Source of the DNA: Octadecabacter temperatus
Lineage (GTDB): Bacteria; Pseudomonadota; Alphaproteobacteria; Rhodobacterales; Rhodobacteraceae
DNA: 64,000 bases
NCBI RefSeq assembly: GCF_001187845.1
Contig: NZ_CP012160.1
Span: forward strand, 1,178,001 to 1,242,000
Direction of reading: 5' to 3'
Made by a program: the position numbers and the translations under genes. Under the pieces are notes generated by a model. It searched no databases. It saw nothing but the letters and a program-made list of their open reading frames with translations, and was not told the origin of the DNA. Below, piece after piece: positions 5,659 to 52,768 of this stretch; position 1 is the first letter of the stretch, and the number at the start of each line of letters is the position of its first letter.

Positions 5659-6623
5659 TATCTCAAGACATTTTTGAAACCTGCGTGGCGCGTGCTGCAT
5701 TGGCACCGACCGTCCACAATACCCAGCCGGCCCGTTGGGTGCGGGATGAAAATGTTCTGTCGCTGTTCTGTGACACGAACGTCGGACTTACGTTTGGGGA
5801 CCCGTCAGGGCGCGATGCCGCTTTGTCTTGTGGCGCTGTGCTTGAGGCCATGATCTTGGCCTTGTCCGCTAATCAGATCACGGTTGAAGTGACCCTGACA
5901 GGTAATGACACTGCGCCAAATCAGGGGCTCGTTGCTGTGGCCCACCTAGTTGTTTCGTCTGGGGAACAGGACGGTTTGCATGAGCAGCTAGAAAACCGGT
6001 TCACATGGCGTGGCGCGTTTTCGTCTGAGCCTGCGAAGCTGTTCGGCTGGACGCGGGGCGATGCACGGTTCGTCATGGATCAGCCAGGTCGCAGTTGGCT
6101 GGCGGAACGCAATGACTGGGCCAGCCATCAAATCATGCAGCAGGGCCGCTTTCGTGATGAACTGGTGAGCTGGATGCGATTGAGCGACACTCATCCGCGC
6201 GCAGGTCTTGATGGGATGGATCGCGCCTCCATGCAGATGAGTGAGTCTGAGGCGCGCATGGCGCACTATGCACTGATTAACTTCTGGCGCTGTTTGAAAG
6301 TCTTCGGTCTTACAAAGGGGTTGGTTTCTGAAACAGAAGTGACATTAACAGCGCCTCTTATAGCTTTGTTTCATAGAGATAATGCTGAAGATCCGGTCGT
6401 TTCTGGCCGTGCGTATCTGCGCATGTGTCTTGAGGCCGCGTCGTTAGGCTTTGCTGGGTGGCCAATGGCAGCTTTGTCGGACAATCCAACAACGAACGCG
6501 CAGGTCTGTGAACGTTTCGGGATCGGGCAAGATCGCCAATTGGTTCAGGTCATTCGTTTTGGATTACCTACAGGTGAAGCCGCACCCCGTGCGCGCCGCC
6601 CCTTAAGCGAAGTCATCCGTTAA
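5655..6623 (+). CDS. Acg-like nitroreductase family protein
   Basis: 322 aa, resembling the Acg/Rv3131-type FMN-binding nitroreductase family: N-terminal ARAALAPTVHNTQPARW, matching the flavin phosphate loop with the conserved SxHNxQPWxF-like signature, and a C-terminal LEAASLGFAGWPMAALSDNP segment typical of the second half of the fold. Last gene of the four-gene operon, starting 4 bases before the end of the membrane-protein gene and overlapping the convergent peroxidase gene end by 4 bases. It may oxidise or reduce the product of the upstream acyltransferase/E1 pair; the reaction is not known. Confidence 0.75.
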   Translation: MISQDIFETCVARAALAPTVHNTQPARWVRDENVLSLFCDTNVGLTFGDPSGRDAALSCGAVLEAMILALSANQITVEVTLTGNDTAPNQGLVAVAHLVVSSGEQDGLHEQLENRFTWRGAFSSEPAKLFGWTRGDARFVMDQPGRSWLAERNDWASHQIMQQGRFRDELVSWMRLSDTHPRAGLDGMDRASMQMSESEARMAHYALINFWRCLKVFGLTKGLVSETEVTLTAPLIALFHRDNAEDPVVSGRAYLRMCLEAASLGFAGWPMAALSDNPTTNAQVCERFGIGQDRQLVQVIRFGLPTGEAAPRARRPLSEVIR

Positions 6624-47248: not shown

Positions 47249-47353
47249 AGGCGTGCGCATTTTGCAGCAACTTGTGCATTTGTGTGGCGCTACCTTTTGT
47301 CCGCTGCGGTGTCGTGCGAAACTCTGAAAAACGAACAAAAGTCAGGGCAGGCC

Positions 47354-48358
47354 ATGCGCATTACATCAATCACGCCAATGAAGGACGAAGCGCCGTTCAT
47401 TCTGGAATGGTATGCCTATCACAGCTTGATTGGTTTTAATGATTTTCTAGTGTTTTCAAACGATTGCACTGATGGCACCGATTTGATGCTGGAGCGGCTG
47501 GATGAGTTGGGCAAATTGCGCCATTTTGCCAACCCGACAATGTTTACCAAGAGCACGCACCATCATTGGCAAGTTATTCGATACATCAACACGTTTACAC
47601 GCCTGAAACGGTCCGATTGGGTGGCAAGTTTCGATGTGGACGAGTTTATTTGTGTTAATGCAGGTGACGGAACATTGCAGGCGTTGTTTGATGCCGTGAA
47701 TGGCGCGAACGTCATTACATTCAATCAGCTTAACTTCGGGTCTGGCGGTTTAGACACCTATGAAGATCGTTTGCTTATTGACCAGTTCGAATATGCTTGG
47801 GCCTATGAAGGTGAATACCATCGTGGTGTGTCGCGCCGCGGCACCAAGTCCCTCACGCATAAGTCGGCAAACGCGAGCAATTTCGCCAATCACTCTCCGA
47901 ACGTGCGCAAGGAGGATCTGGGCGGTGTAAAATATGTGAATGGCAGTGGCGCGCCACTTGATGCGTCGCGTTTGCTGAACGACGTGAAATTCCTTGAAGC
48001 ACCCGATTTTGGCTACGATTTGGTGCAGTTGAACCATTACGTTGTCAAATCTGCGGAAAGCTTTCTGCTGCAAGCGGACCGCGGCAACGCAAACCACGCG
48101 GACCGCAGCGCAGATTTCAAATACTGGCGCCGTTACAACAACAACGACGTGCATGACACGCGCATTCAACGATGGTCCGAACGGGTGCAAGACGCCGTGG
48201 CCGAGCTGCGCAAAGACCCAGAGTTGAACGATCTGCACCAACGCGCGGTTGAGATTCACAAAAACCGACTTGTTGAGTTGAAGAAAGACGAAAACATGAG
48301 CGGGCTATACAACCGAATTCGTAAGCAGCAACGCAAGAAACCAGGTTTGGCGGGCTAG
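47354..48358 (+). CDS. Family 2-type glycosyltransferase (Glyco_tranf_2_4-like)
   Basis: 334 aa. GT-A signatures ITSITPMKDEAPFILEWYAY, FLVFSNDCTDGTDLMLERLD and the metal-binding ASFDVDEFICV (DxD). It ends with a basic tail (RIRKQQRKKPGLAG). CAGGGCAGG precedes ATG 47354. Related to the three GT modules encoded on the other strand just downstream; probably part of one surface-glycan locus. Donor and acceptor unknown. Confidence 0.88.
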   Translation: MRITSITPMKDEAPFILEWYAYHSLIGFNDFLVFSNDCTDGTDLMLERLDELGKLRHFANPTMFTKSTHHHWQVIRYINTFTRLKRSDWVASFDVDEFICVNAGDGTLQALFDAVNGANVITFNQLNFGSGGLDTYEDRLLIDQFEYAWAYEGEYHRGVSRRGTKSLTHKSANASNFANHSPNVRKEDLGGVKYVNGSGAPLDASRLLNDVKFLEAPDFGYDLVQLNHYVVKSAESFLLQADRGNANHADRSADFKYWRRYNNNDVHDTRIQRWSERVQDAVAELRKDPELNDLHQRAVEIHKNRLVELKKDENMSGLYNRIRKQQRKKPGLAG

Positions 48359-49167
48359 GACTTTACCGAAACGGGGCAGTCTTTCACCCAGTTCTTATCG
48401 TCAGCATAGCCCAAACTGATGAGCGCATCACCGTATTCCTCGACATAGATTTCCGCCAGCGCGCGCGGCATTTGAGTTTTCCATTGCGCCACGGAACCGG
48501 AGGTAATGTGGCGTGCATGCTGTTTGCCAAGTTCGGATGCTTCGTTCACGCCACCGAACAGGCTGTGCTGCCAATAGGCCTGCACGGCTTTGTCGATATC
48601 GAGGCCCTCAATCGCGAATTCTTCAAGGATTTCACGAATTTTCACGCAGTTCACATCAACGATCAGATCTTCATAGCGCACATCACCAACCGCGTTGCCG
48701 CTATAATCCCATGCCAACATCTCAGCGACAGTCTCGGCATGCTTGTTGCGCATTTCAAACTGCCATCGCTCAAGGTCATTGGGCAGAGCGTTCAGGTGGT
48801 CTTGGTAGTTTTTGCCACCCAGATCATCGCTCGGGTTAGCAAGGAATTTCTCTCGTCCAAGTGGGGCTTTGCGGTGATAGCGCATTCCCGACAACAGCAC
48901 ATCACGCGGATCGCGGATCATGTGAATGAAACGGGCATGGGGCAGGGCGTGCAGTTCGTTGGGAAAGGTGCTTTCCCAATTCACTATAATCTGCGGGCCA
49001 GTTTCGGCTGCCAAACTAATCTTTTCCGCGTCGTGGCATTGCATCAGGGGGATGTCCTGATCGCGCTTTATCTCGTGCAGAACACGGCGCAGCCAAACGG
49101 TGCCCGTTTTGTGATGGGTTCCGACACATAAGAACCGCGCAGGGCCGATCTCAGCCGGATTTATCAC
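48355..49167 (-). CDS. Sulfotransferase family protein
   Basis: 270 aa from GTG 49167. PAPS-binding motifs: 5'-phosphosulfate loop FLCVGTHHKTGTVWL and 3'-phosphate region HMIRDPRDVLLSGMRYH. The GTG overlaps the upstream glycosyltransferase stop (GTGA). An A9 run directly before it allows a -1 slip from the glycosyltransferase frame straight into this frame. It would transfer a sulfate to the glycan made by the neighbouring enzymes. Confidence 0.88.
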   Translation of the reverse strand: MINPAEIGPARFLCVGTHHKTGTVWLRRVLHEIKRDQDIPLMQCHDAEKISLAAETGPQIIVNWESTFPNELHALPHARFIHMIRDPRDVLLSGMRYHRKAPLGREKFLANPSDDLGGKNYQDHLNALPNDLERWQFEMRNKHAETVAEMLAWDYSGNAVGDVRYEDLIVDVNCVKIREILEEFAIEGLDIDKAVQAYWQHSLFGGVNEASELGKQHARHITSGSVAQWKTQMPRALAEIYVEEYGDALISLGYADDKNWVKDCPVSVKS

Positions 49168-50174
49168 TTTTTTTTTGCGTCTTTCGGCTTTCCGAAATGG
49201 CCCGTGTCGATGAACGTGCGGAAATCCGGCTCTGTCAGTTGGTAATCGAGCACACGTTGGGAGCAATCCGCGCAGGCACGGGTTAGCGCCGCAAGGTCAT
49301 CGTCTTTCATCCACTCATCAATAATGGGGCGAATACCGTCTGTGCGGATCGTCGTGTCCTCACAGGTGTTGATGTCGTATTTGTCCCAATACTCCATGTC
49401 GATACGGTCTTTGTTCTTGGAGTTCGCAGTGCCACGCAGACGCTTAAGAAGGAAATCTTCGCGGGATTTAATCGCGTAGTGGTTAACCTGTGCAAACTCG
49501 TTGGAAACGTTTTCGCTGTTCCCGCGCCAACCTTTTTCAAGGTATTGGTCACCCATCGGTTTGCCCGCTGCATTGGTCCATTTGACCATGCCTGGTACAA
49601 GCTCAACGTCTTTTTCAAACCTTGGGCGGTGGACAGCGAAATAGTCGAACTTGCCTGGGCGGAATAGTGTTTTGAAGCCCCAGACAAGGCCGTTCTCGGG
49701 GTCATCGAAGCTAGATCCGCGTGTGTAGCGTTCTGTTACCAGCTCATCCGACATTTTGGATTGCCCTTGGCTGCCCATCAAACGCCAGTTGATTGAAATG
49801 GCGTCAGGGGCGCCGCATGCCTCAATCAGCGCGTCGATTGAGCGGTCTCCAACATGGATGTTGAGGAACTCATCAGCGTCGACAATGAGGACCCAATCCG
49901 CAGCCTTGACCCAGTCAATTTGATTGGCGCGCGAATAGGCTCGGCGTTGTGGGTCCATTTTGGGGCCAAGGGGGTTGTCGAAATGTTTAACAACTCCCAT
50001 CTGGTCCAAACGGTTCAAGATTAAGTTGGTGCCATCCGTGCAATCATTTGAAAAGATGCAGAAATCTGTGATTCCAATGGACTTATGATAGGCCAGCCAT
50101 TCCAAAAGGTAGGGGCCTTCATTCTTCATTGTCGACACAAGGACCTTTCGGCCCGCATCAGGAGCAATCGTCAT
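49164..50174 (-). CDS. Family 2-type glycosyltransferase
   Basis: 336 aa. GT-A landmarks: VLVSTMKNEGPYLLEWLAYH, FCIFSNDCTDGTNLILNRLD, VLIVDADEFLNI (DxD) and the acceptor-side RGNSENVSNEFAQVNHYAIK. The C-terminal codons GCA AAA AAA AAG TGA contain the A-AAA-AAG slippery pattern. ATG overlaps the upstream stop (ATGA). Confidence 0.88.
   Translation of the reverse strand: MTIAPDAGRKVLVSTMKNEGPYLLEWLAYHKSIGITDFCIFSNDCTDGTNLILNRLDQMGVVKHFDNPLGPKMDPQRRAYSRANQIDWVKAADWVLIVDADEFLNIHVGDRSIDALIEACGAPDAISINWRLMGSQGQSKMSDELVTERYTRGSSFDDPENGLVWGFKTLFRPGKFDYFAVHRPRFEKDVELVPGMVKWTNAAGKPMGDQYLEKGWRGNSENVSNEFAQVNHYAIKSREDFLLKRLRGTANSKNKDRIDMEYWDKYDINTCEDTTIRTDGIRPIIDEWMKDDDLAALTRACADCSQRVLDYQLTEPDFRTFIDTGHFGKPKDAKKK
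49167..49177 (-). other. A9G slippery run at glycosyltransferase/sulfotransferase junction
   Basis: Minus strand reads GCA AAA AAA AAG TGA in the glycosyltransferase frame. A-AAA-AAG is the dnaX-type -1 slippery heptamer in the correct phase. A -1 shift gives AAA GTG ATA AAT, the start of the sulfotransferase frame, without a stop. Confidence 0.6.
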
Positions 50175-52768
50175 TGGTTTGCTGCTTTCTGGTTTAGGTC
50201 TTTTCGAGACTTTTTTTTTGAGAGGGCTGCGATGAGCGCATCTGCAGATGCGGTCGCTTCTGCAGCGCTTGTGCGGGCGTCTGTGTCGTCCTCGCTCGGT
50301 GTTTTGTCATCGGCAACCGCTTCCCCTTTCGCTTGCGCGATGAGGTTGCTGCGGCTGGCGCCTTTGGATGCGGTGCGCAGCGACGTGATAAATGCGCGAA
50401 TGTCATCATCGGCGACGCCGGCTTCTTTCAGGCGTGTTACTTCGGCCTGTGCGGACTTGGGCAAGTGCTGTGTAAAGATCACCGACTCTTTCAGCGCATC
50501 CACATCAATCGTAGAGGCTTCTTTCAGTTCTGAAAGCCAATGATCATATTCACCGTTGTCACGCAGCATATTCACGCGGCCAGCATGATAATCCAATGCT
50601 TCGTCTTGCAGTTGGCGCATTTGTGGGTCGCTTAGAATGTCGTCGACCATTTTTTGGACCGTAGGGATGTGGCGGTCAATGGATCCGGGTGTGGATTCAT
50701 TCCGGTCAAAATAGGCGAAATAGGCGGCGTTATACTTGTCTTCTTTGTTGTTCACATTGCCACGCACACGACGCAGCAAATAGGCCTCGTAGCTTTTAAC
50801 CGCGTAGTGGTTCATTTCAGCAATGTCATACCCAATCGTGGGCCGAGTAGAACGCCAACCCGACAAAGAGAATTCATCTGGTAATGGATCGCCAGACCCG
50901 TTGACCCAAAGCTGATCGAGCAATGCTTTGGCGTTCTCTGGGCGGTGGTTCAACTTGCGGATCGAGGGGCGGTGAATTCCGAGTTTAATATCCGCGTAGG
51001 GTTTGAAGAGGGTCTTAACCCCCCAACCTTTGCGAAATCCGTCGTCAGCCGCATGGCTGTAGTTTTCGATCACAAGGCCGGGGTTCCAATCTGTAACACC
51101 AGACGACCCGAAAAAGCGCCACGTAATGGCCATTGCCTGCGCATCTGGGTTCATCACATCCAGCAGGTCGTCAATTTTCCCTTCGCCGGTCTTAACGGTC
51201 AGGAACTCGTCGGCATCCATCACCAAAACCCATTCGCTCAGCATCACCTCAGGATTGCGACCCGCAAGGGACAGCGCGTTCATCTGGGGGCGTTTGCCTT
51301 CGGGTACGTCATTTCGGAAATGTTGAACGTGTCCCAATTCCTGCAATCGCATCAACATCTTGTCGGTGCCGTCATTACAGTTGTTGGTGTAGACACAGAT
51401 ATTTTCGAAGCCGATGTGCTTGTGATAGGCGACCCATTCGACAAGGCTATGACCTTCGTCTTTCATCATCGAAAGGATGGTCGTGCGGTATTTGGGGGCC
51501 GCAGATTCTGGGTTGACCTTCGCGTTGAGTTTGGGTGCCTTTTCTTTCTCTTTTTCACGCGACACAGGTCGATTGTCGCCCTTTTGGGTCGGTCGAGCAG
51601 CATCAAAGACATCTTCGTTGCGCGCGTCTTCCTCGGCCTTAATACCGACAGAGCGGGCGACCATTTTTGCGATCGTCGCGTCGTCAATACCGCTGGCCTG
51701 CATCTCTTTGATTTTTTCCTGCCAGACCTTGGGCAAGTGTTGGGTGAACAAAACTTCATCCAAACCCGTAATTTCAACGGCACTCGCCTTTTTCAGCTCG
51801 ACGATCCATGGATCATATTCACCAAGGCTGCGAAGGCGTTCTACGCGAGACGCATGAAAGTCCAGCGCCTTGTCTTGTAGTTCACGCATGATTGGATCAG
51901 CGAGGATTTCGGCAATCGTTTCATGTAACGCTTTGCTGTGGCGCTGCACATTCAGATGTTCTTCTTCGTTGCGGTCAAAGATCGCGAAATAACCGGCGTT
52001 ATACTTGTCTTCTTTGTTGTTTACGTTACCGCGCAAACGGCGCAACAAATAAGCCTCGTAGCTTTTGACGGCATAGTGGTTCAGTTCGATCAGCCCGTAG
52101 CCCAGCGTGCGACCCGTAGAACGCCAGCCTTTTTGCTGAAAGCTTTCGGGCATTGGCTGGCCGGATCCATTGACCCAGTGCTTCAGAATATCGGCGTCTT
52201 CGCCAAGTTGTTCGATCTTTCCAGGTTTGTTGGTGGGGCGGTGAATGCCAAACTTGATGTGCTCGCGCGGCTTGAACATGGACTTAACGCCCCAGCCTTT
52301 GCGGAACCTGTCTGGTGCGCCTTTTGTGTATGTCTCGGTGACCAGTCCAGGATTCCATGGCGTCACTTCGGACGAGCCGAAAAACCGCCATGTGATCGCA
52401 AGGGCATCCGTTTGTGGGGGCAGGCGGTCCATCACATCAGAGATCATGCCGTCGCCGCACTTGATGGACACAAACTCGTCTGCGTCCATTGTGAGAACCC
52501 AGTCAGAGTCTGTAATTTCGGGATTTGCCGACGCCAAGGCCAAGGCGTTCGGTTGGGGTTTTTTGCCTTCTGGGACGTCATTGCGGAAGTGCTGGACCCA
52601 ACCAAGCTCTTGCAGGCGAATAAGCATCTCATCCGTGCCGTCGCCGCAGTTGTTTGTGTAAACGCAGATGTTATCGAAGCCGATGTGCTTGTGGTAGGCG
52701 ACCCATTCAACGAGCGAGTGGCCTTCATCCTTCATCATCGACAAAATTGTATACTGGTGTTTAGCCAT
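50171..52768 (-). CDS. Tandem double glycosyltransferase
   Basis: 865 aa with two GT-A modules of about 330 residues. Module 1 starts YTILSMMKDEGHSLVEWVAY; module 2 repeats YRTTILSMMKDEGHSLVEWV near residue 430. Both have CVYTNNCxDGTD and VLxMDADEF. The linker (residues 385-430) is charged (REKEKEKAPKLNAKV). The C-terminal extension is Ala/Ser-rich and ends SKKKSRKDLNQKAANQ; its AAA AAA AAG codons form a slippery run. High DNA similarity between modules points to an internal duplication. The first gene of the three-gene minus-strand operon. Confidence 0.87.
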   Translation of the reverse strand: MAKHQYTILSMMKDEGHSLVEWVAYHKHIGFDNICVYTNNCGDGTDEMLIRLQELGWVQHFRNDVPEGKKPQPNALALASANPEITDSDWVLTMDADEFVSIKCGDGMISDVMDRLPPQTDALAITWRFFGSSEVTPWNPGLVTETYTKGAPDRFRKGWGVKSMFKPREHIKFGIHRPTNKPGKIEQLGEDADILKHWVNGSGQPMPESFQQKGWRSTGRTLGYGLIELNHYAVKSYEAYLLRRLRGNVNNKEDKYNAGYFAIFDRNEEEHLNVQRHSKALHETIAEILADPIMRELQDKALDFHASRVERLRSLGEYDPWIVELKKASAVEITGLDEVLFTQHLPKVWQEKIKEMQASGIDDATIAKMVARSVGIKAEEDARNEDVFDAARPTQKGDNRPVSREKEKEKAPKLNAKVNPESAAPKYRTTILSMMKDEGHSLVEWVAYHKHIGFENICVYTNNCNDGTDKMLMRLQELGHVQHFRNDVPEGKRPQMNALSLAGRNPEVMLSEWVLVMDADEFLTVKTGEGKIDDLLDVMNPDAQAMAITWRFFGSSGVTDWNPGLVIENYSHAADDGFRKGWGVKTLFKPYADIKLGIHRPSIRKLNHRPENAKALLDQLWVNGSGDPLPDEFSLSGWRSTRPTIGYDIAEMNHYAVKSYEAYLLRRVRGNVNNKEDKYNAAYFAYFDRNESTPGSIDRHIPTVQKMVDDILSDPQMRQLQDEALDYHAGRVNMLRDNGEYDHWLSELKEASTIDVDALKESVIFTQHLPKSAQAEVTRLKEAGVADDDIRAFITSLRTASKGASRSNLIAQAKGEAVADDKTPSEDDTDARTSAAEATASADALIAALSKKKSRKDLNQKAANQ
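50211..50220 (-). other. A9G slippery run at the double GT / GT junction
   Basis: Minus strand reads TCA AAA AAA AAG TCT in the 865-aa frame. After a -1 shift the frame continues VSKRPKPESSKP and enters the downstream glycosyltransferase at its ATG, with no stop between. GTCT-CGAAA-AGAC follows immediately as a small potential hairpin. Confidence 0.6.

Follow-up and report, generated by a model that had tools for sequence, protein, structure and literature searches.

We analyzed a 64,000-nt window of the Octadecabacter temperatus genome (contig NZ_CP012160.1, positions 1,178,001 to 1,242,000), where an operon runs on the minus strand through a double glycosyltransferase gene (GT1=GT2; the equals sign marks modules in one polypeptide), a single glycosyltransferase gene (GT3), and a sulfotransferase gene (ST). 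We found that runs of nine adenines (A9) lie at both borders between these genes, and that such runs are more frequent in the tails of these genes among relatives than codon usage would predict. Our preferred reading, which we consider evenly balanced between right and wrong, is that the enzymes of the operon are coupled but made mostly as separate proteins, with a minor fused fraction that would arise by slippage at the runs.

Direct reading of the sequence confirmed what the earlier note on this DNA had described, namely two A9G runs in dnaX-type phase from which the −1 frame leads without a stop into the next gene; its run positions were essentially correct and off by at most 1 base (Table 1). 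At junction 1, the GT1=GT2 frame reads TCA AAA AAA AAG TCT, and its TGA (50173-50171) comes 12 codons past the run, overlapping the GT3 ATG (50174) as ATGA. The −1 frame there, KKKVSKRPKPESSKP-M, runs through 12 stop-free codons into the GT3 ATG. At junction 2, the GT3 frame reads GCA AAA AAA AAG TGA, and the −1 frame passes directly into GTG ATA AAT of ST, so that the predicted counts of 12 and zero extra codons both held. The full chain, put earlier at about 1480 residues, comes to about 1471 after a double shift (853 + 12 + 336 + 270). The three frames past each run lead to the fusion, to the annotated stop, or to an early stop, and a single added A opens the downstream frame at both junctions. 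The ATGA and GTGA overlaps are those of translational coupling. A 4-nt overlap always places the next gene in −1, and an open −1 frame is therefore ordinary; we rejected it as evidence for frameshifting because it is inherent to any such overlap.

Table 1. Genes, adenine runs, and overlaps of the operon (positions within the window).
Feature	Position	Strand	Remark
GT1=GT2, double glycosyltransferase, 865 amino acids	50171..52768	−	two PF13704/GT92-like stretches (Pfam)
A9 run, junction 1, followed by G 50210	50211..50219	−	A_AAA_AAG in phase in GT1=GT2
ATGA 4-nt stop/start overlap, GT1=GT2/GT3	50171..50174	−	
GT3, PF13704/GT92-like glycosyltransferase, 336 amino acids	49164..50174	−	Pfam
A9 run, junction 2, followed by G 49167	49168..49176	−	A_AAA_AAG in phase, directly 5' of GT3 TGA
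GTGA 4-nt stop/start overlap, GT3/ST	49164..49167	−	
ST, sulfotransferase, 270 amino acids, start GTG 49167	48355..49167	−	PF00685/PF13469 (Pfam)

The window genome (3.26 Mb) contains 16 A-runs of at least eight on both strands, and only 2 of the 16 reach nine, both of them here; they are coding-region homopolymers in a genome where runs of this length are rare. Among its 331 matches to AARAARAAR, the A8R forms amount to seven runs (five A8G and these two A9G). The 19 genus genomes searched hold 60 distinct runs of A9 or longer, spread over 17 of them. Genome G006 carries 19 of the 60, far above its congeners and with 16 on one strand, and its best match to GT3 reaches only E = 5.6e-4. When G006 was set aside, 12 of the 41 distinct A9 runs in the 16 genus genomes that have such runs, the window genome included, fell within this operon of a few kb (12/60 with G006): two each in G000, G001, and G002, and one each in G003, G007, G010, G013, G015, and G017. 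The run of G007 (locus L027) sits inside the GT1 tail, 224 nt 5' of the stop, and hence was not scored as a junction run.

We then compared these counts with a codon expectation in which amino acids were fixed and synonymous codons were drawn from the same genes (30 tails from 16 loci, 20,000 draws; junction 1 was unusable in L022, at a contig end, and in L029, because of Ns). With related species counted as independent, 2.8 of the 30 tails were expected to carry A9 and 11 did so, a number reached in 0 of the 20,000 draws; only 12 of the 30 tails could carry A9 at all. Tails of single-GT1 loci (L024-L028, L034, L037, L064, L108, and L110) are mostly histone-H1-like linkers rich in Ala, Lys, and Thr and variable among species, L027 less so.

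The junctions were surveyed in 46 loci, i.e., the window plus L020-L064, each of which contains GT3. ST adjoins GT3 in 33 of them. Of these, L021 is fused, and the remaining 32 share the −1 arrangement whether or not they carry a run, which makes phase alone uninformative on frameshifting. A9 or a longer run occurs at six of the 32 unfused GT3/ST junctions (window, L020, L022, L028, L037, and L064). Over all 33, A9 or A10 is found in seven, with G after the run in five of the seven and one of the seven fused: L021, in which GT3=ST reads in one frame across an A9C run. The 4-nt stop/start overlap is shared by most unfused relatives compared, the ST start being GTG in the window and L022 and ATG in L037. 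In a GT3 tree of 34 rows, the window, L020, and L021 form one group (support 100/96), which L022 and L037 join (100/99). The junction-2 run is exactly nine As long in all five, and synonymous divergence among the five closest species is about 0.7-1.5 pairwise. Loci L028 (A9) and L064 (A10) stand elsewhere in the tree, which suggests that the junction-2 runs probably had at least two independent origins.

Additionally, Shine-Dalgarno pairing at ST starts was weaker beside A9 (mean −3.6 kcal/mol, n = 5) than without it (−7.4 kcal/mol, n = 28; one-sided P = 0.0035, kinship uncorrected), in a comparison that covered the 46 loci plus L108 and L110 and kept L108 in the set without the run though its ST looks broken. 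Such weakening would be expected if ST had less need of a start of its own. In L108 (genome G005), a by-eye reading suggests that ST is broken by a frame change near the conserved loop.

The ST gene of Octadecabacter ascidiaceicola (L020) has lost its start codon, which translational coupling requires. At junction 2 of this locus, the GT3 frame ends AAA AAA AAG CGC TAA, against AAA AAA AAA GCG CTA AAT CCG in the ST frame. ATG, GTG, and TTG are all absent between −103 and +65 relative to the GT3 stop. The GTG at +65 falls past the GTHHKTGT loop common to all ST proteins compared. Yet this ST is full length and otherwise intact, with a dN/dS of 0.05-0.08 against five relatives. A far-upstream start was judged unlikely, as the positions −151, −112, and −103 have no Shine-Dalgarno sequence; the sole near route into ST is the A9G run in −1 phase. 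Because ST has no usable start, it must depend on a slip at A9, unless the assembly is short of one A and the fusion is real; a GT3=ST polypeptide would result either way.

The same kind of error could be suspected in the window, where the true length of one or both runs might be ten As, which would mean plainly fused genes. Homopolymers are error-prone and fusions exist in relatives, but we consider this highly improbable, since the ATGA and GTGA overlaps are well formed at both window junctions, like those of unfused relatives and unlike L020, and a full fusion would take two independent errors. A more far-reaching idea, to our minds rather unlikely, is that the length of the A-run is an adjustable dial for fusion, acting over short times through transcriptional slippage and over long times through mutations that change it by one base, which would determine how much of a sugar-transferring and sulfating pathway consists of separate enzymes and how much of an assembly-line polypeptide; L020 would then be a stage at which ST already depends on the slip.

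Junction 1 was compared in the 45 loci that have a GT upstream of GT3. The genes are fused in frame in 15, lie in −1 in 21 and in +1 in 6, and share frame 0 but with a stop between them in 3. Five of the 45 carry A9, namely the window, L020, L021, and the fused L023 and L044. In L023, GT1=GT2=GT3 forms a single frame of about 1198 codons through A9C, and the metagenome protein P0121 (1196 amino acids), which is 99% identical over its whole length, has the same fusion; P0121 represents a 90%-identity cluster of 34 sequences (cluster size only). More distant loci add 14 cases of a GT1=GT3 fusion (L044, L046, L047, and L050-L060), and only L044 among these has A9 at the junction, in an already fused linker. 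The 325 homologues listed also include six GT=ST and two GT=GT=ST proteins. Relatives thus back the fusion proposed in the earlier note more than we had anticipated, with in-frame joins at both borders (L023 and P0121 for the first, L021 for the second), whereas in the window strain it is something that we infer. Five other proteins (P0119, P0143, P0178, P0179, and P0190) combine a GT92-like module with a different partner, PF05050, which we take to be an FkbM-type methyltransferase.

The L021 protein and P0122 are 99.65% identical over 853 amino acids and diverge exactly at the junction-1 run (L021 about 5877-5932). Past the run, the sequence of P0122 matches a different reading frame of the L021 DNA, up to the end of that frame at its overlap with the start of GT3; judged from the protein, an extra A in the P0122 strain would explain the divergence. 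Such a pair is what a one-base length change would give if the runs were a heritable switch, in which replication slippage alters run length and cells come to differ in fused, separate, or truncated enzymes, as in phase variation of a glycan operon. The outcomes of the three frames past each window run would suit it, and cell-surface genes and poly-A/T tracts are typical of phase variation, according to the part of the source available (PMC3711429). Nevertheless, we consider a switch improbable, because the evidence is one sequence pair, metagenome assemblies may err at homopolymers, and the junction-2 run does not vary from nine As among the five closest species. Nine As is also short for a contingency locus.

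How a fusion would be made was considered for the two mechanisms offered in the earlier note, RNA-polymerase slippage and ribosomal frameshifting. The dnaX-type heptamer is present in phase at both runs, as the note had stated, but programmed frameshifting is the weaker mechanism, since no stimulatory RNA fold was found in the six stretches folded (four in the window, one in L020, and one in L021). True programmed −1 frameshifting of the dnaX kind, with stimulators, therefore appears quite improbable to us, even though A_AAA_AAG is in phase at both junctions and a stop codon directly follows run 2. Only the UUU type of tRNA-Lys was found among the 30 tRNA loci typed, a list that is incomplete (without Ile; six further Rfam tRNA matches of 83-87 bases were left untyped), so a ribosomal shift is possible; in E. 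coli, a sole UUU tRNA-Lys makes the heptamer shifty, according to the available portion of PMC5009743. On the other hand, frameshift-prone heptamers without stimulators in E. coli reach only 2.1 to 10 times the 0.055% background in what is available of PMC4066793, a range not specific to A_AAA_AAG. Furthermore, the phase is broken at junction 1 of L021, and AAC replaces AAG at junction 1 of L020 and L023.

The accessible parts of three papers indicate that runs of at least nine As can yield far more through RNA-polymerase slippage (PMC5009743, PMC4256274, PMC1088944). An A11 run in Citrobacter tssM gives about 20% longer product (PMC4256274), and nine is the run length at which many genomes show selection against slippage (PMC1088944), both again as given in those parts. 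We consider RNA-polymerase slippage more likely than stimulated ribosomal frameshifting as the source of a fusion.

The preferred reading can thus be put as follows. The C-terminal tails that carry the A9 runs are rich in lysine and evolve fast, and they would serve to link the enzyme modules of the operon. GT1=GT2, GT3, and ST would normally be three proteins, with GT3 and ST started at the 4-nt overlaps by translational coupling. In a minority of transcripts, RNA polymerase would add one A at A9 and the next frame would be entered without a stop, and perhaps a small share of ribosomes would shift −1 on A_AAA_AAG. The slip products would be GT1=GT2=GT3 and GT3=ST, and in relatives, small changes at these very junctions may have left the genes permanently fused. 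On sequence grounds, a slip-joined single enzyme chain at the A9 runs is plausible, and we infer that slippage could reach a useful level in the window strain. The complete four-module chain would be a weaker proposition for this strain than the single fusions.

Several observations weigh against this reading. In the window, the overlap supplies each of the two downstream genes with a start codon, and a slip is not needed there. The run is absent from 26 of the 32 unfused GT3/ST junctions; at the first junction, 40 of the 45 loci are without A9, and the run of L021 is out of −1 phase and would need a +1 shift. L021 and L023 are metagenome-assembled genomes, in which one-base errors may occur. 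Shine-Dalgarno strength at junction 1 did not differ with and without the run (P = 0.32, n = 3 versus 29). No significant downstream stem-loop was found in the window in a search that covered folds other than pseudoknots (z-scores of −0.71 and 0.09 for junction 1 and of −0.10 and −0.90 for junction 2). The codon test counts related species as independent, and A9 runs may grow through mutation alone, without selection. Finally, the conservation across five species of the Lys codons that make up run 2 (2/2, versus 3/18 of the other conserved Lys codons) is suggestive only.

It is a genuine possibility, though one to which we lean less, that the runs are incidental, i.e., that the operon has poly-lysine tails and plain 4-nt-overlap coupling and that the effect of A9 is limited to occasional errors. 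The −1 arrangement does not depend on the run, as the unfused GT3/ST junctions attest, many of the relatives compared have GT1 tails that are rich in lysine yet lack A9, and the start codons at both window junctions fit as well. What this explanation accommodates poorly are the A9 excess over codon expectation and the genome-wide uniqueness of the two runs, together with the start-less ST of L020 and the weaker Shine-Dalgarno sequences at A9-bearing ST starts.

The predicted behavior resembles several known systems in part. Transcriptional slippage at A9/T9 (Thermus dnaX, insertion sequence elements) or at A11 (Citrobacter tssM) likewise uses an A-run near a frame end to give access to another frame; here, instead, the runs lie at the borders of complete, independently started enzyme genes, twice per operon, and the product, predicted from sequence alone, would be a multi-enzyme fusion. 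The dnaX-type −1 frameshift shares the heptamer, its phase, and the open −1 frame, but a shift here would lengthen the product rather than shorten it, and the window lacks a detected downstream stem-loop. Translational coupling is alike at both junctions, except that it needs no A-run. Poly-A/T contingency loci are similar in having a frame-critical homopolymer in glycan-type genes and an apparent length difference between near-identical sequences; conversely, there are only nine As here, and any run length leaves the upstream catalytic modules intact. The in-frame GT=GT and GT=ST fusions of Rhodobacterales (Nioella, Tropicimonas) have the same modules, order, and junctions but are permanently fused.

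Gene fusion is usually caught only before and after the event. Here, at the same A-runs, the same enzyme pairs are found separate, fused, or apparently dependent on a slip (L020) in near relatives, and each step by which an operon may turn into a multi-enzyme protein is open to testing. If the preferred reading is true, chromosomal glycan enzymes would join the cases of slippage, which in the literature available to us in part have so far come largely from dnaX, secretion genes, and insertion sequences. Gene callers would then also overlook fused products in such operons.

Regarding the enzymes themselves, the GT1 and GT2 modules are 61.7% identical over 371 amino acids, and GT3 is about 35% identical to each of them. 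The PF13704/GT92-like profile matches scored 140.5 and 76.4 bits (curated cut-off, 27.5), and the ST match to PF00685 scored 33.6 bits (curated cut-off, 22). Against the PDB, GT3 had no match up to E = 1, and ST had weak matches to the sulfotransferases 7d1x and 7eov (E about 0.009). Titles and abstract openings of the open-access papers listed contained nothing on this operon. A fourth PF13704 glycosyltransferase lies at 47282-48358 on the plus strand, convergent with ST and overlapping its tail by 4 nt (48355-48358); of the 45 loci L020-L064, 16 have an opposite-strand GT module downstream.

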